DNA from: a virus
Virus record (IMG/VR): IMGVR_UViG_3300044622_000387
Coordinates: 1 to 41,293 of that record
Length of the DNA stretch: 41,293 nt
Direction: 5' to 3' (one strand)
Both the position numbers and the translations under genes were made by a program. The notes beneath the pieces were generated by a model. It was not told the DNA's origin. It made no database searches and was given only the letters and a program-made list of their open reading frames with translations. Shown one piece after another: positions 4,652-40,147 of the stretch. Each line of letters opens with the position of its first letter. Position 1 is the stretch's first letter.

Positions 4652-4846
4652 TTAAGAACAGATAATCCAGAGTATAGCCAACTCAAACGTGTTAAGCTGC
4701 ATCTCTTGCGCGTTCACCAAGCTTAAGCACCACTTAAGTGCGATATGCAGAACATAACCCGCACTTAACGCGAACATAAGCGACTTAAGCTTACTCTTAA
4801 GCTGCTCAAGCTTGTCATATACCGCTAACTTGTCCTTAAGCGTCAT
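4652..4846 (-). CDS. Small membrane protein, unknown function
   Basis: I chose the ATG at 4846 because it overlaps the stop of the upstream gene as ATGA (4843-4846), giving 64 residues. The N-terminal third is a Lys/Leu-rich helix with repeated LK pairs. A hydrophobic segment around residues 25-43 and a second near the C terminus ('FELAILWII') could span the membrane. The gene is the second of a two-gene unit that begins the leftward run from the divergent region. It contains five CTTAAG hexamers (a sixth is cut by its stop codon), mostly from CTT-AAG Leu-Lys codons. I do not recognise the family. Confidence 0.55.
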   Translation of the reverse strand: MTLKDKLAVYDKLEQLKSKLKSLMFALSAGYVLHIALKWCLSLVNAQEMQLNTFELAILWIICS

Positions 4847-5250
4847 CTTATGCATAGCGTCTTGTTCTTAACCCAAATACGTTGACCCTGACGAAAGTTG
4901 ACGCCCTTCATGCCGACAAACACCATATCCTCGACGTCTGTGCGTACCCAACGCTTATTCGGATACAAGTACACGATCCTTTGCTCCATAGACTCGTTAT
5001 GTATCGGGATGTAACGAGGCTCCGTAACAGGTAACTCTGGTGTCACCGGTGTAGGCTCATCCACCGGCTGCTCCTGCTCGGCCACTTCACCGGGTAGCGT
5101 TCCATCAAGCAGGTTGCTGCGGTAGATACGGCGAATACCCTTGAAAGCCTTACGCTCGATATAGTCCTCGTCGAGCTTGTACGACAATGGTCGATATGCG
5201 CTCCCTAGATGCGCCTTAACAGTCTTTTCGCTTAGTGTGTACTTGGTCAT
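4843..5250 (-). CDS. Hypothetical protein, first gene of the leftward run
   Basis: From the ATG at 5250 this is 135 aa. Longer upstream extensions in frame are Cys/Arg/Ser-rich and look non-coding. The N-terminal ~55 residues look folded ('HLGSAYRPLSYKLDEDYIER'). A Pro/Glu/Thr-rich linker at about residues 58-75 is followed by a C-terminal domain with a basic beta-rich look that ends 'WVKNKTLCIR'. Bipartite proteins with an acidic linker can be virion or regulatory proteins, and nothing here decides it. It sits immediately left of the 739-bp non-coding divergent region, so its promoter must lie there. Confidence 0.65.
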   Translation of the reverse strand: MTKYTLSEKTVKAHLGSAYRPLSYKLDEDYIERKAFKGIRRIYRSNLLDGTLPGEVAEQEQPVDEPTPVTPELPVTEPRYIPIHNESMEQRIVYLYPNKRWVRTDVEDMVFVGMKGVNFRQGQRIWVKNKTLCIR

Positions 5251-5454
5251 AGTACAAGCGACGGTACAGGAAAAGAAGCGGCAGCGCAAGCTTACGCCCA
5301 ACAAGGGCCAGCTAGCCGGGCGCCCGCTCGACGTGTACCCCCACAGAAACACGTCTATTGCTCCCAGCGGCACAGCATGTACACACGCTGCCACGAGCAG
5401 GCTAGGCCAAGCTACGAGCGTAGGGCAAGTGCGAAGGGGGCCAGTTGGCGAAAA

Positions 5455-5513
5455 AAAATCTGAGGGGGGCTATGCGTCGCCGTTGCCGTCGCCAGGCGCT
5501 ATCGAACCCCCTC
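5455..5513 (-). terminator. Possible terminator or attenuator for leftward transcripts
   Basis: On the minus strand GAGGGGG and CCCCCTC form a 7-bp stem around a 38-nt GC-rich loop, and AGATTTTTTTT follows directly. The loop is long for an intrinsic terminator. If real, it would attenuate transcription that enters the gene at 5250 from a promoter further right. Confidence 0.35.
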
Positions 5514-5772
5514 CGCCCCTATCGCCGGTTTCTCAGAGTAAAAACCCCATTCCATATGACGTGTGTTGTAAACTGTTATGGCCAACCCGCTCAGCCGCAA
5601 CAGCTTGCAAGGGTGGCTCAAACGTGACGTGCCGGAAGCGCCGCTTTGGTGCTCGGCGAGGTCGCTTTTGGCGGGCCGATGGGACGTTGACGGGTGAGCT
5701 GGGCGGGGCGTGCGTGGGCGCGCGGTCGTTGCTTGTGACGTGGGGGCGGTAACGCATTTTCCTCACCCTATT

Positions 5773-5810
5773 GCAACTCACTTGCATCTGCTAACGCAAC
5801 TCACTTGCAT
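5773..5810. repeat. Duplicated operator-like 15-mer
   Basis: GCAACTCACTTGCAT occurs at 5773-5787 and again at 5796-5810, with start points 23 bp apart (about two helical turns). Each copy contains the dyad (T)GCAA-N5-TTGC(A). Such spacing fits a pair of dimeric repressor sites or iterons between divergent transcription units. Confidence 0.6.
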
Positions 5811-5857
5811 TAGCCCGCTCGCTCCGTCACGTCACCACGTACCACACTCGCATCGTC

Positions 5858-5907
5858 CGTGCATCCGCCGAGCTACACGCACGCACCGGGATGCACGCTT
5901 TTCTTTG
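5858..5907 (+). terminator. Inverted repeat followed by T-rich tract
   Basis: CGTGCATCC (5858-5866) is repeated inverted as GGATGCACG (5889-5897) with a 22-bp spacer, followed by CTTTTCTTTG. It could stop rightward transcripts before the promoter at 5932, or act as an operator. The long loop makes it uncertain. Confidence 0.35.
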
Positions 5908-5931
5908 CCCATCGTTTCTTTTTTGTTGCCA

Positions 5932-5940
5932 TGCTATACT
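5932..5940 (+). promoter_or_regulatory. Extended -10 promoter candidate for the rightward genes
   Basis: TGCTATACT matches the extended -10 pattern TGnTATAAT with one mismatch. A T-rich stretch precedes it, but no good -35 is seen at 16-18 bp. Transcription would begin about 40 bp before the ATG at 5990. Confidence 0.45.
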
Positions 5941-5989
5941 GCACGGCCTAGTTTTTCCCTCGTCAGTCCAACTTTAACTCATACCTACT

Positions 5990-6136
5990 ATGTCACCTGA
6001 TCAGATGAACTCACTCGAGTACGCTGCATACGTGCGCCTTGCACTTTTCTGCCTTATGGGCGGATGCACGCTCATCCTCGCATGTTTCGCAGTCTCAATA
6101 CATTCCGACTACCGCAAAGCAAACCGCAACAAGTAA
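5990..6136 (+). CDS. Small single-span membrane protein
   Basis: This 48-codon gene starts at ATG 5990. The product has a short polar N terminus, one hydrophobic helix of about 22 residues (around residues 15-37, including Cys and Gly), and a basic C-terminal tail ending 'YRKANRNK'. That orientation predicts the tail in the cytoplasm. It is the first gene of the rightward unit, about 50 bp after the promoter candidate, and the next gene starts 16 bp later. There is no Shine-Dalgarno sequence, like its neighbours. Function is unknown; early membrane microproteins often alter the host or exclude other phages, which is inference here. Confidence 0.6.
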   Translation: MSPDQMNSLEYAAYVRLALFCLMGGCTLILACFAVSIHSDYRKANRNK

Positions 6137-6152
6137 ACCAACAACGCAACAT

Positions 6153-6371
6153 ATGGAACACGAACCATTAACACTAGACCAAATCCTCGGCCTATACCCA
6201 TCGTTAGACCGCGCTTACTACCGTATGCAAACCCTTGATGCTAATGGTGCTACGATTGTAGCCAACGAGATCGAGGACCTGTTTTGCTTTGGTAATGGGA
6301 ACGATGAAACCGCCCAACGGCTCGCTGACAGCATCCAAGCAACCTGTGACAGCATTAAAAACCAAGCCTAA
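6153..6371 (+). CDS. Hypothetical protein, rightward unit
   Basis: This 72-residue acidic protein starts at ATG 6153 (MEHEPLTLDQ). An upstream in-frame ATG at 6039 lies inside the previous gene and gives a low-complexity extension, so I rejected it. The sequence looks helical and soluble with no known motif. It is the second gene of the rightward unit and has a CA-rich leader without a Shine-Dalgarno sequence. I do not recognise it. Confidence 0.65.
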   Translation: MEHEPLTLDQILGLYPSLDRAYYRMQTLDANGATIVANEIEDLFCFGNGNDETAQRLADSIQATCDSIKNQA

Positions 6372-6405
6372 ACCTCAACCCTAACACACTACAAAACACA
6401 CACTT

Positions 6406-6711
6406 ATGACAATTCCTTTTGTTTACACGTCCGGTTTTCCAATCACAATAGGTGACCGCATCAGGTGGAGTGCTGGCGGAAATTACGCAGGCGGAGGATC
6501 ATACCAAGAGTATGGCATTGGCACGGTAATAGAGTTTGGGCCAGCGTATGTAATGTTAGAGTGTGAGAGCGGACGGAAAAACTCTTGCTCTCAGCGCTTT
6601 GGGTCAGACGATAGGAATTTAAACGGAAAGCGGCATGCCCTTTGGTTTTTTGATTATGATGCCGAAAACGACGCTAGGATGTTTAATGGCGTAATCGAAA
6701 ACGCAGACTAG
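6406..6711 (+). CDS. Hypothetical beta-rich protein, rightward unit
   Basis: This protein has 101 residues. Residues 12-55 alternate hydrophobic and polar positions with Gly-rich turns ('WSAGGNYAGGGSYQEYG'), as in a small beta barrel such as an SH3-like fold. The C-terminal part is acidic and aromatic ('ALWFFDYDAEND'). The gene is preceded by the leader AACACACTACAAA (6383-6395), which recurs before the GP88 gene. There is no Shine-Dalgarno sequence. I do not recognise the family. Confidence 0.65.
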   Translation: MTIPFVYTSGFPITIGDRIRWSAGGNYAGGGSYQEYGIGTVIEFGPAYVMLECESGRKNSCSQRFGSDDRNLNGKRHALWFFDYDAENDARMFNGVIENAD

Positions 6712-6761
6712 GCTCCCACACTGCGTCTCTACGGGGGCGCAGCAGGGAGCAAAGACGCTCC
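6712..6761 (+). promoter_or_regulatory. Intercistronic hairpin with an alternative fold
   Basis: Directly after the stop codon at 6711, GCTCCC (6712-6717) pairs with GGGAGC (6745-6750) and the inner CTGCG (6721-6725) pairs with CGCAG (6738-6742). The same GGAGC (6746-6750) can instead pair with GCTCC at 6757-6761. There is no U-tract, so an mRNA-stability or attenuation element is more likely than a terminator. Confidence 0.45.
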
Positions 6762-6786
6762 GTTAAACACACTACAAACAAACCAT

Positions 6787-7392
6787 ATGCAAATTACACT
6801 GTCACAACCCTCAAAGATGCCTTGCCAAGGTTGGAGCGTTCCAGCTCTCGCATGCAAGACAGGCTCAAAACTCGCACAGGTTGAAGGTTCCGTATGCCAT
6901 GGCTGTTACGCCCTCAAAGGATTCTACCGCATGCCTAACGTCCAACGCACGCTTCAGGCACGCTTAGCCCTAATGGAATCGCCCGAATGGGTGCCAGCTA
7001 TGATTGCCAAGATACGCGAAACGGAAAAGAGCGGCTTCTTTCGTTGGTTCGATAGCGGCGACCTTCAGAGCATAAAAACGCTCAAAGCAATCGTCCGCAT
7101 TGCCATTGCATTGCCTGAGATTCGCTTTTGGTTGCCAACGAAGGAGTATGGCATCGTCTCCGAGTATGTTGAATTGTTCGGCAGCTTCCCACCCAACCTT
7201 ACAGTGCGTCTCTCCGCTTACATGGTAGACAAAGCGGGCCCCAATAGCCTAGCTGAAGGCCTCGGCGTCACCACAAGCGAAGTATCCTCCACAAGCGGTA
7301 CGTGTCCGGCACCTACACAAGGCAACAAATGCGGCGATTGTCGCGCTTGCTGGTCCAAAGACGTTCAGACTGTCACCTATCGCATGCACTAA
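6787..7392 (+). CDS. GP88-family cysteine-rich phage protein
   Basis: This 201-residue protein matches the phage 'gene product 88' family (function unknown) by my recollection of its conserved features. The N-terminal Cys cluster is C13, C23, C37 and C40 ('VCHGCYALKGFY'). It is followed by the core 'FFRWFDSGDLQS' and 'FWLPTKE', and by a C-terminal cluster 'CPAPTQGNKCGDCRAC'. Eight cysteines in two groups suggest a bound metal or an iron-sulfur cluster. The gene sits on the strand opposite almost all others, after a structured 75-bp spacer and the AACACACTACAAA leader. Early, host-interacting expression is plausible but not shown. Confidence 0.8.
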   Translation: MQITLSQPSKMPCQGWSVPALACKTGSKLAQVEGSVCHGCYALKGFYRMPNVQRTLQARLALMESPEWVPAMIAKIRETEKSGFFRWFDSGDLQSIKTLKAIVRIAIALPEIRFWLPTKEYGIVSEYVELFGSFPPNLTVRLSAYMVDKAGPNSLAEGLGVTTSEVSSTSGTCPAPTQGNKCGDCRACWSKDVQTVTYRMH

Positions 7393-7396
7393 GCTT

Positions 7397-7606
7397 ATGA
7401 GAACCCCATTACTTACTGAGGTCAAAATCGCGCTTGAGGCGGCCCTGTGGCATATCAAAGACAACGAAGGGGTGGTTGACCTTATGGAAGACGCTCTACG
7501 CTCGTTAGAGGCCGCCATTGAGGCCGTGAACGGAGCAAAAGAGGACGCGCATCGCATGGAAGGACGCGTCAACGTAGACACTGACCTATTGGAGGAGCTG
7601 GTCTAA
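7397..7606 (+). CDS. Small helical protein, last gene of the rightward unit
   Basis: This 69-residue protein is almost entirely helical by composition, with heptad-like Leu, Ala and Glu spacing and an acidic C terminus ('DTDLLEELV'). It starts 4 bp after the GP88 stop, so the two are co-transcribed. The strong terminator at 7614-7646 follows eight bases later. No family is recognised; a small coiled-coil partner of the GP88 protein is possible. Confidence 0.65.
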   Translation: MRTPLLTEVKIALEAALWHIKDNEGVVDLMEDALRSLEAAIEAVNGAKEDAHRMEGRVNVDTDLLEELV

Positions 7607-7613
7607 CCAAAAC

Positions 7614-7646
7614 GCCCCTAGGTTCGCCGCCTAGGGGCTTTCTTTT
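7614..7646 (+). terminator. Strong intrinsic terminator between converging units
   Basis: GCCCCTAGG (7614-7622) pairs perfectly with CCTAGGGGC (7630-7638) around a 7-nt loop, and TTTCTTTT follows. It ends the rightward unit. Read from the other side, the stem is followed by GTTTTGGTT, so it may also weakly stop the leftward run that ends at 7650. Confidence 0.9.
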
Positions 7647-7649
7647 ACC

Positions 7650-7832
7650 CTAATTCCGCCCCACTTCACGTACCTCACGCGCTACCCTGCGCAGACTCGC
7701 CAGCAACGTCGCGAGCTGGCGCGCTAACCTACTCTCACGCCTATGCGCTAGCTCATACATGCTCCGCCATTTCGCGGCCTCACTCGCATAAAACTCGGCC
7801 TCCTCTTCTAGGGCTGCGCAATCTTCGCACAT
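7650..7832 (-). CDS. Small coiled-coil protein, end of the leftward run
   Basis: From ATG 7832 this is 60 aa, starting MCEDCAALEEE. A longer version from 7889 would overlap the previous gene by 82 bases, so I prefer the shorter one. The N-terminal CxxC may bind metal or form a disulfide. The rest is a charged Ala/Arg/Leu-rich helix. It is the last leftward gene and faces the terminator. The function is unknown. Confidence 0.5.
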   Translation of the reverse strand: MCEDCAALEEEAEFYASEAAKWRSMYELAHRRESRLARQLATLLASLRRVAREVREVGRN

Positions 7833-8128
7833 CGCAAGTCGTTCTCTAACAGCGCGATGCGCACATGCTGCGCCTGAATGATGCGCCAATACCGCTCGGT
7901 AAGATCGCGCAGGTCGTGTACCTCATTGGCCAGGTCAATCCCGTTCGGTAAAACTAAATTTGAATTTTGAATTTGAGATTTGATTTTGAAATTTGAAATT
8001 TGATTTTCAATTTCGGATTTGGAATTTGAAATTTGATTTTTGAAGTCCACCTTGAAATTTAGAAGTTGAATGTCTGATTTGCAAGGTAGACCGGCCAGCG
8101 CATCACTCGTTTTCAATCGTTCCAACAT
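7808..8128 (-). CDS. Hypothetical protein with an inserted Asn/Ser/Lys/Ile repeat tract
   Basis: From ATG 8128 this is 106 aa and overlaps the end of the HTH gene by 26 bases. Residues 1-25 and about 60-106 look like ordinary coding sequence; the C-terminal part ('LRDLTERYWRIIQAQHVRI') is a coiled-coil. Between them, residues of the type 'NQISNSKSEIENQISNFK' are encoded by the AT-rich repeat at 7954-8043. The repeat tract is unlike the rest of the genome in composition and keeps the frame open. The function is unknown. Confidence 0.55.
   Translation of the reverse strand: MLERLKTSDALAGLPCKSDIQLLNFKVDFKNQISNSKSEIENQISNFKIKSQIQNSNLVLPNGIDLANEVHDLRDLTERYWRIIQAQHVRIALLENDLRCAKIAQP
7954..8043. 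repeat. AAATTTGA-type AT-rich degenerate repeat tract
   Basis: About 90 bp built from imperfect 7- to 8-base units of the kind AAATTTGA, ATTTTGA and ATTTGAG, with almost no C on the plus strand. It lies inside the gene at 7808-8128 without breaking the frame. Similar tracts are, as I recall, scattered in Planctomycetes, Verrucomicrobia and some cyanobacterial genomes, so it may have been captured from the host. Confidence 0.85.
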
Positions 8129-8687
8129 GATCGTCAGGGGCTTTCGGCGGCTTAAGGGCCGCCATGAAAGCGGCAGAGATGTCGTTGTTCGTATGCAGAT
8201 GCACATGCTGGTGCAACTGATCCGGCACCTTGTTCTTCTCTAGGTTAGCATACTTGTCCAGTGTAATCCCCAAGGCCAGCACAGCGTCCTTGGCGGACAT
8301 CTCCGGCATCAACTCCATGACACGCTGTGCAGCCCCATCGATCACCGATTGTAGTTTGGCCTTCAAGTTTGTGTTGAAGTACGCATTACGGAACTGCGAA
8401 TCCATGTCCAGCGCACTCACCTTGATCTCGTCCACGCTCCGCTCGCTGATGCCGAGCTGCATGGCGATGGCTCGGCTGTGCTGACCAGTGATGAACAGAT
8501 CGAGCACCTTCTTCTGTATCTCAGGCGGTATACCAGCAAGCGCACCGAGGCCATTCACCTTCTCCTGTATCACGCCTGGCACATGCTTCTCTATCTTCAC
8601 GCCAGAAAGCCCGGCTAGCTGCCTAGCACGGGACTCTGGACTGCGATAGACTGCGTTGCGCTTCTTGCGCTTGGGTGCCTCGCTCAT
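8103..8687 (-). CDS. HTH protein, candidate terminase small subunit
   Basis: This is a 194-residue protein with a basic N terminus ('KRKKRNAVYRSPESRARQLA'). A helix-turn-helix lies around residues 68-89 ('AIAMQLGISERSVDEIK'), followed by a long helical region and a His-rich stretch 'LHQHVHLH' near the C terminus. A DNA-binding N terminus followed by helices fits small terminase subunits, which recognise the packaging site. However, the gene is separated from terL by the rightward unit and the divergent region, and an HTH transcription factor is the alternative. Its ATG overlaps the upstream stop codon as ATGA (8684-8687). Confidence 0.6.
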   Translation of the reverse strand: MSEAPKRKKRNAVYRSPESRARQLAGLSGVKIEKHVPGVIQEKVNGLGALAGIPPEIQKKVLDLFITGQHSRAIAMQLGISERSVDEIKVSALDMDSQFRNAYFNTNLKAKLQSVIDGAAQRVMELMPEMSAKDAVLALGITLDKYANLEKNKVPDQLHQHVHLHTNNDISAAFMAALKPPKAPDDHVGTIENE

Positions 8688-9129: not shown

Positions 9130-9419
9130 TTGTTCTTTATGTACTCTATACCATGTTGATCAAGCAGCGCATACAGCCGCAATGCTTCGCACTTCCATGT
9201 CACCCGTTTAGGCGCAACCTCAATTCCAGCCAACGCCTTTAACTTGTTTATCGTACCAGCACCAATGCCATACACGTTCTTGGATGTCGTGAACGACCAG
9301 CGTAAGTCCTGCATGTTGCTGATGTTAAGCAGTTCAATGTACCGCGCCATCTTAAAGTCTAGGGGCGCAATCCCGCACCGAGCTTCAACTCGGCGTATCC
9401 ATAGCTGACGCTTATTCAT
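9126..9419 (-). CDS. Hypothetical protein with a helix-hairpin-helix-like segment
   Basis: From ATG 9419 it is 97 aa; an ATG at 9428 would add three residues. The middle segment 'NVYGIGAGTINKLKALAGIE' looks like a helix-hairpin-helix (GxG followed by a Leu/Ala helix), a non-specific DNA-binding motif. The N terminus is basic. It follows the dNMP kinase with a short overlap (9412-9419) and precedes a string of coiled-coil micro-genes. A role in DNA metabolism fits the context but is inference. Confidence 0.6.
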   Translation of the reverse strand: MNKRQLWIRRVEARCGIAPLDFKMARYIELLNISNMQDLRWSFTTSKNVYGIGAGTINKLKALAGIEVAPKRVTWKCEALRLYALLDQHGIEYIKNK

Positions 9420-9891
9420 TGCTGCCATATTTCTTAAGTTCGTGTAGTAGTATGTGTTTAAACGTCTCGCTGCCGTCGTTGATCAGCGTGAAGTCTGGGT
9501 TGATCTGCTCCTGTTCGGTCTCGGACACATGATCCATCGGATCTACGCCGAATCGCCTGACTCGAATGACGATGCCGCCAAGCTCGCGGATAGCCGCAGC
9601 TTCGTTGAGGAAGCGCACGTCGTCGATGACTAGTAGCCTGTCGGGCGGCATGAAGCTCACCCACAACTGCGGGTCATATGCTCGGCCTGCCATGCCTAGG
9701 TCTTGCAGAAGCTTGCGCCCACGCTCGTCCTTCTCGCCATCCCAACCCATGTAGCGGCCAGCAAGCCGCTTGATCTCGTGCGCAAACGAGAAGAGCCGAT
9801 AGGCGGGGTAGCAATCCTGAACAACCGAAGCTGCGTAACTCTTGCCTGAGCCGGACAACCCAGTGAAGCCAATAATTTGCGGCAGACTCAT
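9412..9891 (-). CDS. Deoxynucleoside monophosphate kinase
   Basis: This 159-residue P-loop kinase probably converts dNMPs to dNDPs for phage DNA synthesis. The Walker A GLSGSGKS is at residues 11-18. 'LLVIDDVRFLNEAAAIRE' gives the central strand with its acidic residues, and 'GIVIRVRRFG' the next strand, an arrangement I know from phage dNMP kinases. The C-terminal part ('FTLINDGS') also fits that family. A strong Shine-Dalgarno (AAGGAGG) precedes the ATG, one of the few in this genome. It is flanked by micro-genes with four-base or short overlaps. Confidence 0.85.
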   Translation of the reverse strand: MSLPQIIGFTGLSGSGKSYAASVVQDCYPAYRLFSFAHEIKRLAGRYMGWDGEKDERGRKLLQDLGMAGRAYDPQLWVSFMPPDRLLVIDDVRFLNEAAAIRELGGIVIRVRRFGVDPMDHVSETEQEQINPDFTLINDGSETFKHILLHELKKYGSNE

Positions 9892-10974: not shown

Positions 10975-11186
10975 TTGCCCCTCCATTCTTGCATGGCTGA
11001 TACCGCAAACGCTGCACTAGCCCAAAATAGGACGAGCAATACAATGGCCTCCCATAGCTCTTCAGCGAAGTAAGCGATGGCCAGTCCGTCAAAGACGGCG
11101 AGAGTAGCAAAGCCCCAGAGGTACGGGACGGCTTTGTTGGAGTTGTCAGGTTCAAGTTTCATGTAACTTTGGTAGTGTTTATTCAT
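10971..11186 (-). CDS. Small two-span membrane protein
   Basis: From ATG 11186 the product is 71 aa and overlaps the end of the helicase C-half by eight bases. Residues 22-40 and 43-65 are hydrophobic and can form two membrane helices, separated by a short acidic turn ('AEELWE'). The N terminus is polar and the C terminus basic. I do not recognise it; the position inside a replication block is unusual for a holin. Confidence 0.6.
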   Translation of the reverse strand: MNKHYQSYMKLEPDNSNKAVPYLWGFATLAVFDGLAIAYFAEELWEAIVLLVLFWASAAFAVSAMQEWRGK

Positions 11187-11763
11187 TATGGAACGTAGCG
11201 GTTTTGCCTGTAAAGCGCAGATTTGCACTCACGCCGCACGGGCCGTTTCGTTGGATGGGTATGCCAACCTCGCGGAACTCTGCGTCATCAGAGAGCTTCA
11301 CAACCATCACGGCTGTAGCGTCTTGTCCGATTGCGCGACTTTCGCGAGCTTTACCCTGTTCATTTAGTTGCGTAATCGAGATGACTAAGCAACCTAATTC
11401 GATGCCAAGTAAACGCAGGCTCCGGCTCACCTCGGCCACTTCACGCTCACGGCTGCTGTCCTTGCCAAGGTCACACCTGACAAGCTGGATGTAGTCAACA
11501 AACAGCACACCGAGTCCGTCCGGGCTCTTCGCCATAGCTCGTGCAGTGGCGCAGATGTTAGCGATGTCATAGAGATCGTCACGCACCACCAAGCGGCTGT
11601 TATTGAGCTTCTGGATGGCGCTGTGGACGCCTCTGATGTCGCGCTCGTGCTTGGCACCTTCAGCGAGCGCACGCAGGCTGACGTTGCCTAGCCGGGCGAC
11701 GAGACGGTCGATGATCTGGTTAGCTGGCATCTCCAACGAGATGACGAGTATTCCTTTGTTCAT
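11179..11763 (-). CDS. DnaB-type replicative helicase, C-terminal half (split gene)
   Basis: This 194-aa protein is the second part of a DnaB-like RecA-fold helicase. It starts at the beta strand after the Walker A helix ('GILVISLEMP', residues 4-13). It has the Walker B 'VLFVDYIQLV' (Asp90), the sensor 'ISITQLNEQGKARES' (Gln132) and the C-terminal 'QRNGPCG' segment (171-177) that carries the DnaB arginine region. It lacks the P-loop and the N-terminal domain, which are encoded at 14002-14712. Placed end to end, the two parts have the normal spacing between GKT and SLEM (20 residues) and a normal total length (430 aa). Its ATG lies inside the end of the methyltransferase gene (44-base overlap). 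The two products probably assemble into one ATPase. Confidence 0.88.
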   Translation of the reverse strand: MNKGILVISLEMPANQIIDRLVARLGNVSLRALAEGAKHERDIRGVHSAIQKLNNSRLVVRDDLYDIANICATARAMAKSPDGLGVLFVDYIQLVRCDLGKDSSREREVAEVSRSLRLLGIELGCLVISITQLNEQGKARESRAIGQDATAVMVVKLSDDAEFREVGIPIQRNGPCGVSANLRFTGKTATFHNE

Positions 11764-12685: not shown

Positions 12686-12914
12686 TGCCTGGCCTTGCAG
12701 ACGTGTGACTATGTTGCCCCGTATACGGTTCAAGCAAATACTTCACCTCGATGAGATCCGTCGATTGGTTCTCCGGCAGAAGCATAAGCGCCTCCATCTT
12801 CGAGCCAAGTGCAGCCTTCTCGCCAATAGCGACGATGTCCTGCGTCTTCTTTGGGCGTGGTAGCTCCACGTTTTGCAGCACGTTAGTGCGGCGGATGAGT
12901 ACCCAATCGCTCAT
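12672..12914 (-). CDS. Small hypothetical protein between exonuclease and methyltransferase
   Basis: From ATG 12914 it is 80 aa, with an ATGA overlap to the exonuclease stop (12911-12914), and it overlaps the methyltransferase start by 14 bases. The N-terminal half has a folded look ('SDWVLIRRTNVLQNVELP', then a helix 'KMEALMLLPE'). The last 20 residues are Ser/Thr/His/Gly-rich and may be dispensable. The upstream extension to 13154 lies over the exonuclease and is Arg-rich, so I rejected it. The function is unknown. Confidence 0.55.
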   Translation of the reverse strand: MSDWVLIRRTNVLQNVELPRPKKTQDIVAIGEKAALGSKMEALMLLPENQSTDLIEVKYLLEPYTGQHSHTSARPGNGTR

Positions 12915-13690
12915 GCCTCCTCCCATCTTCTTGGCAACATCACGCGCATCGTTGGTGGACCGGGCCACACATCTTGATCGAGGCACAGCTTGTACTGCGC
13001 CAGTGTCACGTCGAGTTGCTCGTTGGCGATGTCGATAAGTTCCGTGGACGCTTTCACCCACTGCGACAGATGGGGCGCTTGCATATCGACGACTAGGAAG
13101 TAGAAGTCGATGTCCTCTTGGCCGGTGATCTGCTCTAGGCCGTAGGTGTACCAAGCGGCCTGCTTATCGTAGCCGAAACCAAAGAACTTGTGGTCGAATT
13201 TCGAGAAGTCGCTAGTCGTCTTTAGGTCGACGATAGCCGGACGTCCCTTGATCTCGGTAATCATGTCAGGCCTGCCCTTGCATTGCACACCGTCACGTTC
13301 CCAGAACATGGATGCTTCGATGATCTTCTTTGCAGAGATCATGTTAAGCAGTGGCTCACAGGCTTTGACTGCACCTTCAATCCTTGCGGCTTCCTCGGCG
13401 TTGACTACGATCTTGCCTTGGTTCTCAAAACAGAAGTCATGCCACTCTTCCCTTCCGGCTTTAGTCTTGCGATTGATTTCTTCTGGTGCCTGCACGTACT
13501 CGCAGCGCCCCTCAAGAGCGAGGCTGTGGACAAGCGTGCCAAGCTCCATCTCGCGGGACGGCTTCCACTCTTGACGTTCTTTCCATTTGTAGTACGCCGG
13601 GCAGACTGCGAATGCGTCGAGGCTGTGCTTCGATAAACCGTGCATGCCACGGTACGTTGTCATTTCTAGGTTTTGTAGTTCTGTTTTCAT
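12911..13690 (-). CDS. PD-(D/E)XK exonuclease (RecE/Cas4-like)
   Basis: From ATG 13690 this is 259 aa. The features of the RecB/RecE-type nuclease are present in order: 'MELGTLVHSLALEG' with His55, 'GRPDMI' with Asp142, 'AIVDLKTT' with Asp155 and Lys157, and the QxxxY-type helix 'YDKQAAWYTYG' (Q177, Y181). It is closest to the family of phage exonucleases formerly called DUF3799. It would resect double-strand ends for recombination or concatemer formation. No Beta/RecT annealase is seen nearby, though the SSB-like protein lies 3 kb upstream. It starts four bases after the stop of the previous gene. Confidence 0.87.
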   Translation of the reverse strand: MKTELQNLEMTTYRGMHGLSKHSLDAFAVCPAYYKWKERQEWKPSREMELGTLVHSLALEGRCEYVQAPEEINRKTKAGREEWHDFCFENQGKIVVNAEEAARIEGAVKACEPLLNMISAKKIIEASMFWERDGVQCKGRPDMITEIKGRPAIVDLKTTSDFSKFDHKFFGFGYDKQAAWYTYGLEQITGQEDIDFYFLVVDMQAPHLSQWVKASTELIDIANEQLDVTLAQYKLCLDQDVWPGPPTMRVMLPRRWEEA

Positions 13691-13694
13691 TTTG

Positions 13695-14009
13695 TTATGG
13701 GTTGATTTCAAGCGCCCCGCAGCCGACGATCTTGCCAGCTCCGTCACGGATGAGTTTGGTTGGACTAGCCAAATCTGTCCTGTTGGGTAGTGCAGTACGC
13801 ACATAGCCAGGGACGATGTACAGGATGCCCTTCACGGGGTCAGGCAGGTTGCTCACTTTAGCGTCCTTGCAGCACATGATGGGTACACCATCAACGTCCG
13901 CTACCTTGCTCAGGTGTGAGTGTACTTTCACCGAGTAACCGCTCGGCTCGATCACGCCGTAACCAGTGATGGTAATGTCGTGAGGGGTTAGGTTTACGAG
14001 TTTATTCAT
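13695..14009 (-). CDS. Conserved phage protein with an NLTPHDI N terminus
   Basis: This 104-residue protein belongs to a widespread small phage family without a known function, recognisable from 'NLTPHDITI' at residues 6-14, 'GYVRTALPNRTD', and the C-terminal 'GKIVGCGAL'. It is beta-rich with no membrane segment. Its ATG overlaps the end of the helicase N-half by eight bases. It is the first of four genes that separate the two helicase halves. Confidence 0.75.
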   Translation of the reverse strand: MNKLVNLTPHDITITGYGVIEPSGYSVKVHSHLSKVADVDGVPIMCCKDAKVSNLPDPVKGILYIVPGYVRTALPNRTDLASPTKLIRDGAGKIVGCGALEINP

Positions 14010-14712
14010 TTATTAGATTTGCAATAATGTTGAGTGCCAGCATGGTTTTGCCGGATTTGGTTTCGCCACCGATGACAACAAAGTCACCAAAGCGTATAGG
14101 ACAGATGTTGTCGATAGCAGAATAACCAGTCTTTATCCGCATGGACTCGTCATCACCTGTCTCATAGCGTGTCAGTGCATTGAGCAGGAGCGCCTTAGTG
14201 TCCATCACCTTCGGCGGAGCAAGTTCACGACTTAACCCCTCGACCTTCATCACGACGTCGCTCAGAAGCTCAGGCGTCTGCACGGTGGCGTCGCTAATAG
14301 CCATAAGCGTCTCGTAGGCGACATGCTGCAAGGTGCGGCGCTTGGCTGTATTCTTGACTATGTCTACGAGGTCGCCGATGGCACCAGCGATGGGCATGAG
14401 CGTGTAGAGGTCGCTGAGTTGGTGGAACTCGGTCGCTGGTAGCGTCTCGCGACACTTCTCGAAGATCACGCGGATCTCGGATGAAGCGTTGCGAGACTGC
14501 TGCTGCAAGATAATCTCGCACACCCGGTGACTGAGCGGGTCGAAGATGTCGCTTACCTTGAAGTTCTTCTCGCTTATGTGGTGCAGAAACACCTCAGGAT
14601 GATTCAGCGCAATTGACGCTATGCCGCGCTCGGCCTCCAGTGCAGTTGGCACCACCGTGTCGGGTGGTAGCTCCACCGGCCTGCGCCTACCAGCTTTCTT
14701 GTGTGCTTCCAT
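14002..14712 (-). CDS. DnaB-type replicative helicase, N-terminal half (split gene)
   Basis: This 236-aa protein holds the DnaB N-terminal helical domain (residues 25-130, 'LEAERGIASIALNHPEVF'), the linker helix region, and the first part of the RecA fold. That part runs from 'GYSAIDNICPIRFGDFVVIG' to the Walker A 'GETKSGKT' (216-223) and its following helix, ending 'ALNIIANLINE'. A complete DnaB would go on for about 200 residues, and those are encoded 2.2 kb away at 11179-11763. The stop codon lies within TAAATGAATAAA, which also starts the next gene. As one chain it cannot hydrolyse ATP because the Walker B is missing, so it must act with the other half, or be defective. Confidence 0.88.
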   Translation of the reverse strand: MEAHKKAGRRRPVELPPDTVVPTALEAERGIASIALNHPEVFLHHISEKNFKVSDIFDPLSHRVCEIILQQQSRNASSEIRVIFEKCRETLPATEFHQLSDLYTLMPIAGAIGDLVDIVKNTAKRRTLQHVAYETLMAISDATVQTPELLSDVVMKVEGLSRELAPPKVMDTKALLLNALTRYETGDDESMRIKTGYSAIDNICPIRFGDFVVIGGETKSGKTMLALNIIANLINE

Positions 14713-17433: not shown

Positions 17434-17687
17434 ATTTTGTAGTGTACTGTAGGCACAATTCTTCCGTCAGTCGTTTTGTGGTAAAACTTCTGTCGTACAG
17501 CTTTCTTTTGAGCAAGGATGTTCCGTGTAGCGGTTCTGCCAATTCCAAGCCGTTGAGCAATTTGTGAGAGTGTATACCACCCCGGAGGTGCGGGTTGAAT
17601 CTCTAGGTTCTGCGCAAGTTGCGAGAGCCAGTCCCCTTCTACAGGGGCAGCTTGAAGCTTCCGTCCTTTAGTTCTTTTGTCAGCCAT
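17430..17687 (-). CDS. Helix-turn-helix DNA-binding protein
   Basis: This is an 85-residue protein with a basic N terminus (MADKRTKGRK). A helix-turn-helix lies around residues 43-62 ('TLSQIAQRLGIGRTATRNIL'), and a basic beta wing ('VRQKFYHKTTDGRIVPTVHY') follows. It overlaps the end of the phosphoesterase gene by 49 bases. It is a candidate regulator of the replication block, whose first intergenic dyad lies about 330 bases downstream. Confidence 0.65.
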   Translation of the reverse strand: MADKRTKGRKLQAAPVEGDWLSQLAQNLEIQPAPPGWYTLSQIAQRLGIGRTATRNILAQKKAVRQKFYHKTTDGRIVPTVHYKI

Positions 17688-18391
17688 ACAATTGTCTCGT
17701 TGTCAGTATATTCGCCCCACGCCCAGCCTCTACTCCAAGCGGTGGTTGCAATTCTATTTTCCGCGTAGCCAGCCATTTCGGGATCTCCCAGCCACCCAAC
17801 AGAGTAGCCAGTCACCCCCTTAATGCGTCTGCCTTCAGCGATTTGTACACGGTGGATATGCCCCATGACAAGCTTAGTGTACTTACCGTGACACATACGC
17901 TCGGCGGAATCACGCAAGGCGTTCTCGCTGTGCAAGTATCCATGCTGGAAGAGCGCGTCACCCAAGCCAACAAAGCCGGTCTTGAGCTTGTAGTCGTAGA
18001 CCTTGCACCTAATCGACTTGGCTCGGTCGTGGATCTGATGATAGACGCGAGTCGCTAGGGCCGAAATGATCGCTTTAGGATGGCTCATGAGCGTCACGAG
18101 CCGAGCTTCGTGATTGCCAAGCAGGTAGTGCTGTGGTCTCAGCGCCGAGATAAATGCTAGGCCATCGTTGAGATCAGCCTCGGGATCTACGGTAGCGTCG
18201 TGACTATCAGCGGTGATCGCGCCACTACGCAAACACGTCATGTCGATGGCATCACCAAGATGCAGCACCGTGTCCGGCTTCCATCGGTCACGAAAGCGTA
18301 AGACTTCCTTGAGTACAGCTTGGTCCGCCATGAACCCATGGCTGCAACTAACTGCAAGGAAGCGTTTCCACTTCCGTGTTATGTTTGCCAT
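17639..18391 (-). CDS. Calcineurin-like metallophosphoesterase
   Basis: This protein has 250 residues. Motifs in order are 'SCSHG' (C16-S17-H18), 'HLGDAID' (D47, D50), 'LLGNHEA' (N93, H94, E95), 'FQHGYLHS' (H150) and 'VMGHIHR' (H178, H180). The first motif is normally DxH and has Cys in place of Asp, so one metal ligand is altered; I recall the same SCSHG/GCSHG form in phage relatives, so it is likely a family trait. It would hydrolyse a phosphodiester, of nucleic acid or nucleotide. It follows the small basic protein gene by three bases. Confidence 0.85.
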   Translation of the reverse strand: MANITRKWKRFLAVSCSHGFMADQAVLKEVLRFRDRWKPDTVLHLGDAIDMTCLRSGAITADSHDATVDPEADLNDGLAFISALRPQHYLLGNHEARLVTLMSHPKAIISALATRVYHQIHDRAKSIRCKVYDYKLKTGFVGLGDALFQHGYLHSENALRDSAERMCHGKYTKLVMGHIHRVQIAEGRRIKGVTGYSVGWLGDPEMAGYAENRIATTAWSRGWAWGEYTDNETIVWLTKELKDGSFKLPL

Positions 18392-26870: not shown

Positions 26871-27112
26871 TAGGAAATAAGCTTACTGAGCTTGTCCACA
26901 ACCCGCTGAAGATCGTCACGTAGTTCAACCATGCGCTCCATATGACCTTCATCCTCGCCCTCTTCCTCTCCCTCGTACTCTTCCTCTTCGCCGTAACCGC
27001 ACTCGGAACAAGTGCCGTCAGACTCCATTGGGGAATCGCATTCGGGACAGGAGCGGCTTTTGCCGCCCATAGGGCCACCAAGGATGGCCAGCATTGCTTT
27101 CATCGATTTCAT
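26870..27112 (-). CDS. Zinc-ribbon protein with acidic stretch and coiled coil
   Basis: This protein has 80 residues. A Gly/Lys-rich start is followed by 'CPECDSPMESDGTCSECGYG' (two CxxC pairs, residues 22-41). A run of Glu/Gly (42-56) and a C-terminal helix 'RDDLQRVVDKLSKL' follow. The combination suggests a small adaptor that binds metal and a partner. It lies between the endolysin and the nozzle-like gene. I recall similar proteins in phages but no function. Confidence 0.65.
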   Translation of the reverse strand: MKSMKAMLAILGGPMGGKSRSCPECDSPMESDGTCSECGYGEEEEYEGEEEGEDEGHMERMVELRDDLQRVVDKLSKLIS

Positions 27113-27116
27113 AGAG

Positions 27117-27593
27117 TTAGGCGATTAAGGATTGTCCCTTGGTCCGGCGAACACGCAGATCAGCAAGAGAATAAGGAGTATCATACTCAAAATGAGGCGC
27201 ATCGTATAGCTTCTTGAATTTGCCGCCCCAACGCAGCTTGTGCTTTGCACACAAGGTTGAGGCGTGTTTATGCATAAGGTCAGCGAGCTTTGCGTCAGCG
27301 GGTGTGCTGCCATCCATGTACACTTTACCCTTGAACACGCCACAGTCGATGGCGAGTCCGAAGTTGTGCATGGACGATCCTGGTTTGGCATTAGTCACCT
27401 TTGGCCCCGGAGCCGTGCGCCCCTTGGCGTACAGCGCCGCTTGTTCCTCGAACGTCCTAGTTCCACAGATGACCTTGTAGTCCAGTCCATTTTGAGCAAC
27501 CAGTTCTTTAGCGTCTACGATGAACGCAATAAAGGCGTCCCTGACTTCAGGTGACAGCGTTGCTATGAACTTGGCTGACCGTTCGTCAATCAT
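27117..27593 (-). CDS. Endolysin, M15-family peptidase
   Basis: This protein has 158 residues. It cuts peptide cross-bridges of peptidoglycan (L-alanyl-D-glutamate or D-Ala-D-Ala type). The zinc site is visible: 'SSMHNFGLAIDCGVF' gives His76 and Asp83, and 'DAPHFEY' gives His134 with Asp131 and Glu136. The N-terminal part ('TRTFEEQAALYAKGRT') is the substrate-side block of the family. There is no signal peptide, so it needs a holin. Its ATG overlaps the stop codon of the small membrane protein gene (27590-27593). Confidence 0.9.
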   Translation of the reverse strand: MIDERSAKFIATLSPEVRDAFIAFIVDAKELVAQNGLDYKVICGTRTFEEQAALYAKGRTAPGPKVTNAKPGSSMHNFGLAIDCGVFKGKVYMDGSTPADAKLADLMHKHASTLCAKHKLRWGGKFKKLYDAPHFEYDTPYSLADLRVRRTKGQSLIA

Positions 27594-29035: not shown

Positions 29036-31204
29036 TTAAAATTTGGCTAGCGCATACTTAAATGGGGCTTCTGCAAAGGCTGCAACTAAAACATCGCCAA
29101 CATTTACTGGGCTACCCCCAGCTGATAGAAGTTTAAACCCATTAGAAGTTATCTGAAAAGAAACCGCTGTAGAATCAACGCCTGCATCGTTTGGTGCAAT
29201 AGAAAAACTGCCCCCTCTAGCTGCATCAAATGCAACCCACCTATTTCTAAATGCTGAAGTATAAGTTTTTAGGAGAAAAAATTTAGGAGAAAAATTACAA
29301 TATGTAAACGGCTTGGTTGCACTGTCGTTGCCGGGATATTTTGTAAATTTGCTAAATCCCGAAATTTCAGCAAAACAATACGCAATGTAATTTACGCCAG
29401 AAGTATTTACGCCTGCAACTGCTGCGAGAGTAAATTCACTTAAAGTTGGAGCTGTGTTGTTCCAAGAGCCAGCACCTGCACTGAAGGTGTCATTAAGAAT
29501 TAATGAGTTATTTGCAGAAACATTTTTATGATACACTATTCCATTTTCATTGGCTCCTGCGCTAACTCGCTTAATAATAATCATTGAAGGAGCAATTCCA
29601 AGATTATGAGAAACTGTTCTAACTACTCCAGTTCCAGTGTATGAAACAATATCTAATCCCGGAACAATTCCTTTTTTCCACTGCCAAGCAAAATAATCAA
29701 CTCCAGTTGCGTTTGTTAGTGTGTTGTCTATTCCTAAATTAAATCCGTTTGAATTAAACCCAGTCAATGTATTTGCGTTAATTGTCTCAGGCGTTGTAGT
29801 GTTGGAAGAAACATATCTTTCCGCTCCTCTCACAGAATCAAACAAAACATGGTTTGTTGTGGCGTTTCTAGCTTTAATCCAAACCAAATCTGGCTGGAAT
29901 GACACACTATTTACTGTGTTGTTAATCGAACGAATGGCTTCATTTCCAGTATAAAGATTTACAGCCATATAATTGGCTGAATTAATAATTGACGGAACTG
30001 GAAGGCTATTTGTGTTAAGCGCATTAAATCCAACAGGTCTAGCATACGCAAACGGACGCTGCCCAAAGTTGGCGTAAATAATTTTTGCGTTTGTCGCAGA
30101 AGCTGCGTATGGAACATATCCTCCACCAGTAAGACCCGTAGCAATTGATGTGTATGTTGTTCCATCAACAGTATAATCCAACGCTCCTGTATCGGCGTTA
30201 AATCTTAAGCCAATAACGCTAGTTGTTGGCGTAATTGTGGCAGTAGTTGCAGTAACTGTAGGAGATTGGTATATTCCAATTATTTGATCCGCAACTGCGG
30301 AATTGTATTGTGTTTCCCAATACCAACTTCCACTGTCCATTAAAATACTTCCAACAGCAACAGCTGTAGCAAGGTTTTGTGATTCAAGATTTCCCGCAAG
30401 AGGGACTGCGTTTGGTATTGCGACTATTCCGTTTAATACAGCATAATTGCCCCTTCCGTTTCCGTCGTCACTGTAGTTTACCGGGACATCGATCATGCTG
30501 TCGTACGTTACGCCAGCCGTCAGCGACACGTTGCTCACCGTCCAAGTGTTGTTATTCCCCGAGCTGTCTGTGCCCAGCGCCGCTAAAGATGATGTGCTGT
30601 TAAAACGCAATCTAAACCCATTGTTTCCGTAAGTTCCTGTGTATTGCTTTGGCGACCATACTCCGGTTGTGGAGTTAATTTCCCCAAAAGAAGTTGGAGT
30701 TAATGCTTGGCCATCAATAAAGTTTACTTCAGTAAGATACCCATCAAAAAAGTTTGAACCTCCATTGCTTCCTATTGAATGGGCTATATTTGTATTAAAC
30801 GCCGCAGGTGCAGTTGTTCCAGTGCCAACTACATTTCCATTTACATAAATTGTTTGAGATGTTTCGTTTTGAGAATAAACGACATGATACCAAGCAAATT
30901 GATCACGAAAAACCGCAGTTGTTAATACTGCCTGAACATTATTTATAAAAAGAGCAATAGCATTCGAGGTTGTAAATCTTAAATACGTTGTGCTGCTAGT
31001 TCCAAACAATGAAATATTCAGGCCTATTTGTCCGCGCTTTACCCATCCCGACCAAGTGTACACGCTTGCATTTGTTGGCGTGCCAAATGTTCTTGTTAAA
31101 TTTGCAGATGCAGTTCTACGAAACCTAAGTGAATTGGTTATCAGGTTAGGATCTGGCGGAGGAGTAACTCCGGCTTTTTTAAGGCTTCCAAGTAGAGCTA
31201 ACAT
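29036..31204 (-). CDS. Tail adhesin with LamG/concanavalin A-like domain
   Basis: This protein has 722 residues. Residues 23-200 form a laminin-G/concanavalin-like jelly roll ('TFGTPTNASVYTWSGWVKRG', 'FAWYHVVYSQNETSQTIYVNG', 'FFDGYLTEVNFIDGQALTPT'). A second lectin/SPRY-like region ('DSGSWYWETQYNSAVADQII', about residues 285-345) follows. The C-terminal region has two similar modules: 'PDLVWIKARNATTNHVLFDS' and 'PSMIIIKRVSAGANENGIVY', then 'PKFFLLKTYTSAFRNRWVAF'. It is a glycan-binding fibre or tip protein that follows the long fibre gene by three bases. Its DNA is A+T-richer than the replication genes. Confidence 0.8.
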   Translation of the reverse strand: MLALLGSLKKAGVTPPPDPNLITNSLRFRRTASANLTRTFGTPTNASVYTWSGWVKRGQIGLNISLFGTSSTTYLRFTTSNAIALFINNVQAVLTTAVFRDQFAWYHVVYSQNETSQTIYVNGNVVGTGTTAPAAFNTNIAHSIGSNGGSNFFDGYLTEVNFIDGQALTPTSFGEINSTTGVWSPKQYTGTYGNNGFRLRFNSTSSLAALGTDSSGNNNTWTVSNVSLTAGVTYDSMIDVPVNYSDDGNGRGNYAVLNGIVAIPNAVPLAGNLESQNLATAVAVGSILMDSGSWYWETQYNSAVADQIIGIYQSPTVTATTATITPTTSVIGLRFNADTGALDYTVDGTTYTSIATGLTGGGYVPYAASATNAKIIYANFGQRPFAYARPVGFNALNTNSLPVPSIINSANYMAVNLYTGNEAIRSINNTVNSVSFQPDLVWIKARNATTNHVLFDSVRGAERYVSSNTTTPETINANTLTGFNSNGFNLGIDNTLTNATGVDYFAWQWKKGIVPGLDIVSYTGTGVVRTVSHNLGIAPSMIIIKRVSAGANENGIVYHKNVSANNSLILNDTFSAGAGSWNNTAPTLSEFTLAAVAGVNTSGVNYIAYCFAEISGFSKFTKYPGNDSATKPFTYCNFSPKFFLLKTYTSAFRNRWVAFDAARGGSFSIAPNDAGVDSTAVSFQITSNGFKLLSAGGSPVNVGDVLVAAFAEAPFKYALAKF

Positions 31205-39087: not shown

Positions 39088-39105
39088 ACTACTAGGAGGA
39101 GTAGT
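39088..39105 (-). other. Hairpin at the 3' end of the capsid gene
   Basis: ACTACT and AGTAGT are inverted around CCTCCT on the minus strand, overlapping the last codons and stop of the capsid gene. TTGTTG follows rather than a T-run, so it may protect the 3' end of the mRNA rather than terminate it. Confidence 0.35.
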
Positions 39106-40147
39106 CGAATTTCCCAAGGCCGAGCGGGTTGCCGACAACCAAGCCAGCAACTGCTTCGATCAAGCGAGCAGGGCCACCACCGTAATCTGGCAGTGCAGTG
39201 ACGTTAGCGACGTTTCCGCCGTAGCGAACCTCGATAAGGTTCATGTCAAGCACAAGACCTTTGTAAGGAGTTGGCGTCCAGGTCGTGCCGGACACGGTTC
39301 CGATGAACGTGGAAGGATGCAGACGCACCGTTCCGAAGTCACCCTGGAACACGTCCAAGCTCTGGATGAAGGTGTCAGCCGCAGCGTCACGCTGGAAGGT
39401 CTGCACCTTGGTAGCACCAGCAGCAAGCGTGTTGCTGGAGTTGCTGACCGTGGTCAGAGCCGTCGTGCCAAGCAGGCCAGTGAAAGCACGCTTCAGGTCA
39501 GTTCCGACGATGGCATCGAAGCTGGTGTAGTGACCAGTCTGGTCGAAGATCGACTTCAGAAGTCCCTGCACACCTGCGTCCGTCAACCCGCTGGATGCAC
39601 CAGTAAGGATCGAGGTCGAAGGAGTACGGAAGATCGAAGGGATGTCTCCGGGAGTTGGCGTTCCAGTACCAGCGGTGCTGATCCAGGTCTGCACACCAGC
39701 GGTGCGGTAGGCCTGAGTCGTGCCGTTGTCCTGCTGCGAGAGCTGGTTCGACGTGAAGGTCGCTTCCATGTCACGCTTGATGCCAGTGATGCCCTTGCTG
39801 ACGTTGTCAGCCAGTTCGTCACGCACACCTGCGACATCAGCGATGTCCTGAGTGAGGCGGGACACGCGCACTGCACGGCGGAACACCTGTGCGTAGTTCG
39901 CGAGTTCAGCACGGTAGCCAACGACGTAGTTGTCGTAGGTGGAAACGTCCGTGCCGTCAACCACACCACCTACCTGAGGGGTAGGAAGCGAGTCAGACTG
40001 CCAGCGGAAGTACATATTTCCGGGCTTGCTGCCTTTGCGAGCCATCGACGTAAAAGGAGTGTCCTTTGCGTCAACGAGCGCAATCATGTCCATCAAGTCT
40101 TCGCGTAGACCGCGACCGCTAAGTTGGGGTTCAGTAAGAATAGCCAT
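39092..40147 (-). CDS. Major capsid protein (SU10-like, DUF5309)
   Basis: This is a 351-residue HK97-fold-type capsid protein. The pattern is that of the SU10 major capsid family: 'GLREDLMDMIALVDAKDTPF', then 'FRWQSDSLPTP', then the long helix region 'YAQVFRRAVRVSRLTQDIAD' and 'ELADNVSKGITGIKRDMEA', and a C-terminal beta part ('FGTVRLHPSTFIGTVSGTTW'). It assembles into the head with the scaffold encoded just upstream. No Shine-Dalgarno is present; the leader is A/T-rich. It lies 35 bases after the scaffold stop and ends before the spacer with the repeated elements. The long open frame on the opposite strand is a shadow. Confidence 0.92.
   Translation of the reverse strand: MAILTEPQLSGRGLREDLMDMIALVDAKDTPFTSMARKGSKPGNMYFRWQSDSLPTPQVGGVVDGTDVSTYDNYVVGYRAELANYAQVFRRAVRVSRLTQDIADVAGVRDELADNVSKGITGIKRDMEATFTSNQLSQQDNGTTQAYRTAGVQTWISTAGTGTPTPGDIPSIFRTPSTSILTGASSGLTDAGVQGLLKSIFDQTGHYTSFDAIVGTDLKRAFTGLLGTTALTTVSNSSNTLAAGATKVQTFQRDAAADTFIQSLDVFQGDFGTVRLHPSTFIGTVSGTTWTPTPYKGLVLDMNLIEVRYGGNVANVTALPDYGGGPARLIEAVAGLVVGNPLGLGKFDYSS

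Follow-up and report, generated by a model that had tools for sequence, protein, structure and literature searches.

A rightward cargo slot with a GP88-family protein in an otherwise leftward phage genome

Why does a phage genome that is read almost entirely leftward keep a short block of genes on the opposite strand, and what might the GP88-family protein encoded there contribute? The question is raised by the viral record IMGVR_UViG_3300044622_000387, analysed over a stretch of 41,293 bases (G+C 50.5%) that we refer to as the window. Between the leftward genes m4843 and m7650, five consecutive plus-strand open reading frames (ORFs) encode TM48, p2, p3, GP88 and p5 (Table 1). A first-pass annotation had described them as a five-gene unit, as the only rightward genes, and as an early host-takeover or defence module. 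Judged by gene order in relatives, the block is a rightward accessory cargo slot with fixed edges, TM48 on one side and the stop of m7650 on the other, and not a fixed five-gene module. The description as the only rightward genes holds roughly: among plus-strand ORFs of ≥80 amino acids (aa) outside the block, three are covered to less than 40% by longer minus-strand ORFs, at 5177-5752, at 5710-6000 just upstream of the block, and at 26942-27217 (91 aa, 37% covered).

Gene order between the slot edges

In relatives selected by their GP88, TM48 and GP88 are constant and the other genes vary. Since this choice of relatives is biased, an independent search of IMG/VR was made with TM48 alone, and it returned 62 loci. 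Window-type GP88 is present in 37 of them and absent from 25, of which 22 reach the right neighbours. Leftward m4843 precedes TM48 in 57/62 loci and leftward m7650 follows it in 52/62; these neighbours flank TM48 wherever they were detected, the remaining stretches being short on that side. At the right edge, inspection by eye showed that the sequence continues from the same TAATTC, in the m7650 stop region, in all 19 loci printed; a T varies at one or two positions further on.

The cargo was compared across 52 loci, namely the window and 51 of the 62 (ten of the 11 omitted show no right neighbour in the stretch covered; L253, which shows part of m7650, was also omitted). Their rightward ORFs fall into 40 clusters, including TM48 and a few overlap artefacts, with window-type GP88 in 30 loci and a 266-aa form of the family, F6, in seven. 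The simple ORF caller behind these counts chose a longer ORF overlapping TM48 in its stead in 7/52 loci and missed a small cargo ORF, F2, in L230; the F6 counts were filtered by length, and a wrong 130-aa ORF of L255 was removed. Near-identical loci remain in the counts, and the reduction to 39 distinct gene strings used below drops equal strings only.

A tree of the conserved neighbour gene m8103, comprising 47 rows (37 different) of the 52 loci and including five of the seven F6 loci, was used to follow the cargo over time. With the states window type, F6 and none, the tree requires 16 changes, against a mean of 16.7 for shuffled labels (as low in 84 of 200 shuffles), and its starred branches force at least eight changes for window-type GP88. 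The presence of GP88 on the neighbour-gene tree is as scattered as shuffled labels. The number of state changes matches the shuffles, and the cargo is thus exchanged rapidly in evolutionary terms, provided that m8103 does not recombine, which it may. We regard it as very probable, from these comparisons of gene content, that the stretch is an exchangeable slot.

The five rightward ORFs exist as annotated, and their combination was seen in no other locus. TM48, GP88 and p5 hold their position and orientation in relatives; p2 has no relative in the viral contig scan, its cluster being confined to the window, and p3 has two relatives at 87%, both in loci without GP88 and with equal gene strings. 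TM48, the first gene, recurs in relatives, with 14 invariant residues among 13 sequences. The two proteins that had been listed as unknown, p2 and p3, are confirmed as ORFs, and searches of Pfam and PHROGs with TM48, p2, p3 and p5 gave no convincing match.

Pfam at E≤0.01 recognised two of 35 cluster representatives, F6 as GP88 (E 5.9e-45) and F12 as ArdA, a known antirestriction family (PF07275, E 3.8e-23), the latter also placed as ArdA by PHROG matches. Whole-record scans of 50 TM48 records detected ArdA in six, and in these six loci the F12 cluster is found inside the slot (L236, L243 and L275-L278; about four distinct, with two pairs of equal gene orders). F19 matches a PHROGs family labelled DNA ligase (5e-12); the other PHROGs matches are weaker. 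Two further cargo proteins may be mentioned: F14 (L224, L237, L238, L264, L272), 113 aa and acidic, matches phrog_9974 of unknown function (E 5.7e-21), and F22 (L237, L238, L264), 182 aa, bears a very weak likeness to two families, one with the label DNA polymerase processivity factor (E 0.0095), the other with the label RusA (0.002).

The block had been described as bounded by a promoter candidate and a perfect terminator, and these fared differently. The terminator was borne out as a perfect stem with a T tail. The CCCCTAGG-core stem recurs 37-41 nucleotides (nt) ahead of the m7650 end in 19/52 loci, window included, and any such terminator was obtained in 0.1% of shuffles; in most other printed loci, which lack this stem, a cargo ORF extends up to the m7650 stop. 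The promoter was not confirmed: a consensus scan gave four hits where shuffles gave 4.3, and it listed no promoter ahead of TM48. The candidate falls within a block common to 8 of 24 aligned upstream stretches (among them L047, whose TM48 match at E 0.06 is probably not a true TM48), its second hexamer has 3/6 matches, and it remains a weak candidate.

Table 1. Features of the rightward block and its flanks, in window coordinates.
Feature	Position	Strand	Description
m4843	4843..5394	-	Left leftward neighbour; match begins near residue 42 in many relatives
Promoter candidate TTGCCA-N17-TAGTTT	5926..5954	+	Upstream of TM48; by eye; weak
TM48	5990..6136	+	Membrane protein of 48 aa with a single span (by eye); first and constant gene of the slot
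p2	6153..6371	+	72-aa ORF; cargo
p3	6406..6711	+	101-aa ORF; cargo; weak phrog_2251 match
GP88	6787..7392	+	201 aa; PF17338, phrog_1392; weakly radical-SAM-like predicted fold
First cysteine site, C23-x13-C37-x2-C40, then Y41	6853..6906	+	Candidate [4Fe-4S] ligands
D89-S-G-D92	7051..7062	+	Invariant in 43/43 rows; candidate equivalent of the GGE strand in radical SAM proteins
Second cysteine site, C173-x8-C182-x2-C185-x2-C188	7303..7350	+	Invariant in 43/43 rows; spacing of the QueC zinc motif
p5	7397..7606	+	69-aa acidic ORF, probably helical by eye; start 4 nt past the GP88 stop
Intrinsic terminator	7614..7638	+	Perfect stem with T tail, between converging p5 and m7650
m7650	7650..7889	-	Right leftward neighbour; its stop is the right slot edge
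m8103	8103..8687	-	Conserved leftward gene; weak helix-turn-helix and terminase small subunit matches; tree marker

The GP88 family and its likeness to radical SAM proteins

The assignment to GP88 with eight cysteines was upheld. The window protein matches PF17338 with 89.6 bits (E 3.5e-25; curated cut-off 24.4) and phrog_1392 with 1.1e-14, and eight cysteines were counted. The family (PF17338; phrog_1392, phrog_1617) is given no function in the libraries, and relatives in phages of Caulobacter, Roseobacter, Pelagibacter, Acinetobacter and Streptomyces are annotated as hypothetical. We collected relatives from 19 phage records, from viral contigs (the best 80 of 156 pattern-matching stretches) and from genome contigs (32 loci, 15 of them on contigs <10 kb). 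Among 398 genomes from the phylum of G003, a genome itself selected for its GP88, four exceed the cut-off and two of the four hits are proteins of another family, DUF5131, which argues that GP88 proper is rare in cells. Searches of the open-access PubMed Central literature turned up, among the papers listed, no study of what phage GP88 does; in the available text of PMC5987705 and PMC11797047 gp88 is merely a gene number, and in that of PMC12445080 TcmP, a protein that we return to below, is merely a table gene, so that none of the three bears on the function of GP88.

Conservation was assessed over 43 diverse sequences and over a closer alignment of 31 rows out of 57 distinct sequences found. 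Across the 43 divergent rows 17 columns are invariant: C37, C40, A42, R86, W87, D89-S-G-D92, W115, N137, R141, S143, C173, C182, C185 and C188. K10 and H201 are nearly invariant. Of the remaining two cysteines, C13 lacks conservation, whereas C23 is present in 31/31 closer rows and shifted by one column in the divergent rows shown. Thus six cysteines are strictly conserved and C23 nearly so, forming two sites, C23/C37/C40 and C173/C182/C185/C188.

The first site resembles that of DUF5131 (PF07505). That family also goes by the name Gp37/Gp68. Both have a three-cysteine site ending in CxxCYA and a T-K strand, and the Pfam GP88 model matches 7/13 DUF5131 proteins at E≤0.01, with a top match of 9.4e-8 that exceeds the cut-off; three of the 13 (L139-L141) had been fetched via the GP88 model, and at least four of the ten independently fetched proteins match. 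In the reverse direction, PF07505 gave no match to the window GP88 at E≤1, and GP88 is related to the family and not a member of it. A profile comparison with wider alignments scored 41.5 (E 1.9e-5, probability 77%, 96 columns), whereas 150 column-shuffled alignments reached no more than 25.4 and reversed ones 17.1, and it paired CxxCYA with CxxCYA as well as the T-K strand. DUF5131 in turn leads to enzymes that use S-adenosylmethionine (SAM) in radical reactions. One DUF5131 protein matches NCBIfam rSAM_mob_pairA (E 3.3e-27, 95 bits, under the model cut-off of 355), the neighbour of another, at one locus scanned, matches TcmP, and one DUF5131 and one TcmP protein match the PADLOC candidate models PDC-M30/M41. 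A DUF5131 model predicted from 32 phage-contig sequences (predicted local distance difference test, pLDDT, 91.5) has as its best solved match spore photoproduct lyase (Z 14.1, root-mean-square deviation 3.0, 198 aligned, identity 10-14%), followed by a viperin-like protein (12.0), SuiB (11.5), lysine 2,3-aminomutase (11.1), and RlmN and lipoyl synthase (both 10.9); unrelated barrels first appear at Z 9.4 and lower.

The model of GP88 itself (AlphaFold2, 31 sequences, pLDDT 89.5, predicted template modelling score 0.88) gives weak matches of the same kind. Its top six matches in the VIA comparison are radical SAM enzymes with Z 5.8-6.9, including QueE (6.9), a viperin-like protein (6.3), lysine 2,3-aminomutase (5.9) and the PFL activating enzyme (5.8).

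Several observations count against a radical SAM assignment. The best VIA value of 6.9 is below 8, the tool's warning level; the seventh match, chitotriosidase, equals the sixth at 5.8, and unrelated barrels follow from 5.8 downward. The best Foldseek match is NifB at E 0.036, with none below 0.001. The canonical CxxxCxxC and GGE are absent from GP88, the spacing being C-x13-C-x2-C, and DSGD is unaligned to any DUF5131 motif; its correspondence to the GGE strand, which the profile alignment does not reproduce, is that of a candidate. With narrower alignments the hhalign probability is 37%, and the global alignment is poor. Searches of NCBIfam and PADLOC with GP88 gave no match, and a PDB sequence search with its profile gave chance hits only. 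GP88 is also shorter than DUF5131, from which it differs further in having x13 in place of x6 between cysteines and in sitting in phage cargo with p5 or F2. The available text of PMC3742179 states that three-cysteine motifs other than CxxxCxxC also support radical SAM chemistry. Because the matches of the GP88 model are weak, the radical SAM link rests on the DUF5131 sequence bridge and the cysteine site, and only lightly on the GP88 fold. On this basis GP88 is plausibly a compact, divergent radical-SAM-like protein; shared ancestry with DUF5131 and radical SAM proteins is likely, and whether the chemistry has been retained appears evenly balanced.

Spore photoproduct lyase, according to the available text of PMC3742179, repairs a thymine dimer through radical SAM chemistry, and GP88 could accordingly be a DNA repair enzyme that reverses ultraviolet photoproducts in phage DNA, in which case the slot would hold general fitness cargo and not counter-defence genes. 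The lyase match belongs, however, to the DUF5131 model and not to GP88, at the low identity given above; the lyase is absent among the 50 VIA matches listed for the GP88 model, which excludes nothing. Among the relatives, one sample bears the label 90cm and some are 'SulCav' isolates; judged by names alone, these are not from sunlit water, and scattered presence and ArdA in the slot suit an arms race better than repair. We consider the repair function improbable.

The second cysteine site invites a different reading, in which GP88 binds zinc, performs no SAM chemistry and acts on a host factor as a regulator or inhibitor by binding to it, the radical SAM likeness being only a remnant of the fold. 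The spacing C-x8-C-x2-C-x2-C is that given for the QueC zinc motif, C(x)8CxxCxxC, in the available text of PMC13329287, and Pfam QueC has a very weak match to GP88 residues 145-190 (E 0.16, 11.8 bits, below the cut-off of 22). The weak fold match and the non-canonical spacing of the first site fit this as well. The SGGxDS ATP-binding motif of QueC is absent from GP88, which agrees with QueC in cysteine spacing only. The three-cysteine site and DSGD are, on the other hand, conserved too, and F6 keeps the three-cysteine site without the four-cysteine tail; because of this, the first site is the one shared by both GP88 forms. A zinc protein without SAM chemistry is in our judgement rather unlikely.

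A role in DpdA/7-deazaguanine modification, prompted by DSGD and the QueC-like cysteines, was considered and dropped: no queuosine-pathway enzyme was found among 20 other leftward ORFs of the window that were searched (Pfam, E≤0.01).

Two GP88 forms and their small neighbours

F6 retains, by eye, a three-cysteine site of the form C-x6-C-x3-C and lacks the C-terminal four-cysteine site of the window form. When PF17338 was run on 50 of the 62 TM48 records scanned whole, 28 had one window-type protein, seven had one F6, 15 had neither and none had two; the scanned records may be fragments. The two forms do not occur together in any of the 52 loci (P 0.0013) or of the 39 distinct gene strings (P 0.005). 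It would be tempting to take this as a sign of equal function. A control over all clusters with at least three loci weighs against that step. F9 is never found with window-type GP88 either (0/7, P 0.0013; 0.012 over strings), F15 likewise (0/5), and F14 is found with neither form (0/5, P 0.0012). Exclusion alone therefore does not show that the two forms do the same, and slot size or lineage may explain it.

A closer tie between the forms is provided by F2, an ORF of 68-76 aa. In 13/13 called loci it stands directly after a GP88 gene (F6 in seven, window type in six), its confinement to loci with either form has P 0.0056, and it is directly behind GP88 in L230 too. Two phages that are more distant, L048 and L052, likewise have it after GP88. 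A search with F2 itself gave nine loci, with a GP88 form directly before it in seven; in the other two, L296 and L297, no GP88 adjoins F2, which speaks against a strict pairing. L297 encodes a third GP88-like protein at 1657-2511, matching DUF7227 (E 6e-4, below the cut-off) about 1.5 kb before the F2 relative and having a four-cysteine tail with, by eye, the same spacing.

For p5, GP88 is directly upstream in 7/7 other loci found with p5, and in L049 a 46% relative of p5 lies about 175 nt behind GP88. The restriction of p5 to GP88 loci is not significant taken alone (6/6, P 0.11). As for the helical partner suggested in the first pass, p5 is probably helical by eye and, on gene order, a partner candidate of GP88.

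These patterns also bear on a simpler account, in which TM48 heads an ordinary early operon that serves host takeover or superinfection exclusion, and the small ORFs behind it merely turn over neutrally. TM48 is indeed the sole constant gene, and most cargo ORFs are short and unmatched, some of them possibly spurious. Neutral turnover does not sit well with the strong constraint on GP88, with its invariant columns across divergent rows and its recurrence in phages of other hosts, or with the position of F2, mostly directly behind GP88. We hold this account to be unlikely.

A possible role for the slot

The explanation that we slightly favour as a whole takes the stretch for an accessory cargo slot, read rightward in a phage genome that otherwise runs leftward. 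Some relatives have a terminator at its right edge, close relatives exchange its cargo, and in this phage it holds p2, p3, GP88 and p5. The slot would deliver early products directed against host defence or serving host takeover. GP88 would most likely belong, as a small and divergent member, to the same superfamily as DUF5131 and spore photoproduct lyase. By homology, spacing and gene order, its C23, C37 and C40 may hold a [4Fe-4S] cluster that cleaves S-adenosylmethionine and so initiates radical chemistry; the substrate would be a macromolecule and might be nucleic acid. A second metal, which would probably be zinc, may be bound by C173-C188, and a small partner or adaptor could be supplied by p5 or, in other phages, by F2.

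As to function, some relatives carry ArdA, and because of this the slot most likely delivers early counter-defence or takeover products. The available text of PMC11541004 lists ArdA among the anti-defence proteins of plasmid leading regions and terms such clusters anti-defence islands. The phage slot is like these islands in having clustered small accessory genes, ardA included; it differs in being a slot with fixed edges and a membrane-protein leader, and ArdA is the only recognised anti-defence protein among the 35 representatives. Genomic context agrees. GP88 relatives in four annotated phages that were inspected sit in small-gene clusters. In CRP-603, HTVC033P and AM24 the cluster is at the left end or close to it, and in Seuss it adjoins a regulator a few kb from replication genes. 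Three points pull the other way: Pfam, PHROGs and PADLOC recognised no anti-defence gene in the block of the window, ArdA is present in just 6/50 related records (about four distinct), and most cargo ORFs are without known function. The slot products are probably early, acting in counter-defence or host takeover; a counter-defence role taken by itself is tentative, a little short of evenly balanced. Of the early host-takeover or defence module first proposed, then, the early takeover or defence role has support from context, through the small-gene clusters and ArdA in the same slot of relatives, while the module gives way to an exchangeable slot, and no anti-defence gene was recognised in the window.

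A more specific and fairly unlikely version would have the slot take one of two very small radical-SAM-type enzymes, either the 201-aa GP88, whose tail is zinc-like, or the form of 266 aa, and pair it with a tiny adaptor, p5 or F2. Early in infection the enzyme would chemically modify nucleic acid or else a component of the host defence. It would be the phage-borne counterpart of the cellular DUF5131-TcmP pairs, which are candidate defence systems.

Elsewhere in the window, a DnaB-like helicase domain is split over two minus-strand ORFs about 2.2 kb apart. The ORF at 14005-14712 ends with DnaB profile positions 2-44 (E 0.0017) and that at 11182-11763 has positions 49-255 (E 4.5e-31), with a PDDEXK/DUF3799 ORF (12914-13804) and a 296-aa ORF between them; an insertion, an intron or a split gene is possible. 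Among other minus-strand ORFs, that at 29039-31204 contains DUF7483 as well as a lectin-like domain and is probably a tail fibre. An SU10-type major capsid protein (39095-40147) and a calcineurin-like phosphoesterase (17642-18391) are also encoded, and the ORF at 9415-9891 partially matches phage deoxynucleotide monophosphate kinase (E 3.6e-5, below the cut-off). A search of the whole window for tRNA genes found none, and an Rfam scan gave no family at gathering score.

GP88 proteins are found in phages of many hosts, in families that have no function in the libraries searched. The link to DUF5131 and spore photoproduct lyase, the two forms with a shared neighbour, and the slot that in relatives carries ArdA together make for a testable proposal, namely that GP88 may be a compact Fe-S enzyme that acts against host defence or modifies nucleic acid. 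The fixed-edge slot, with about 35 clusters of small and mostly unknown proteins, would in addition be a place to seek new anti-defence genes.

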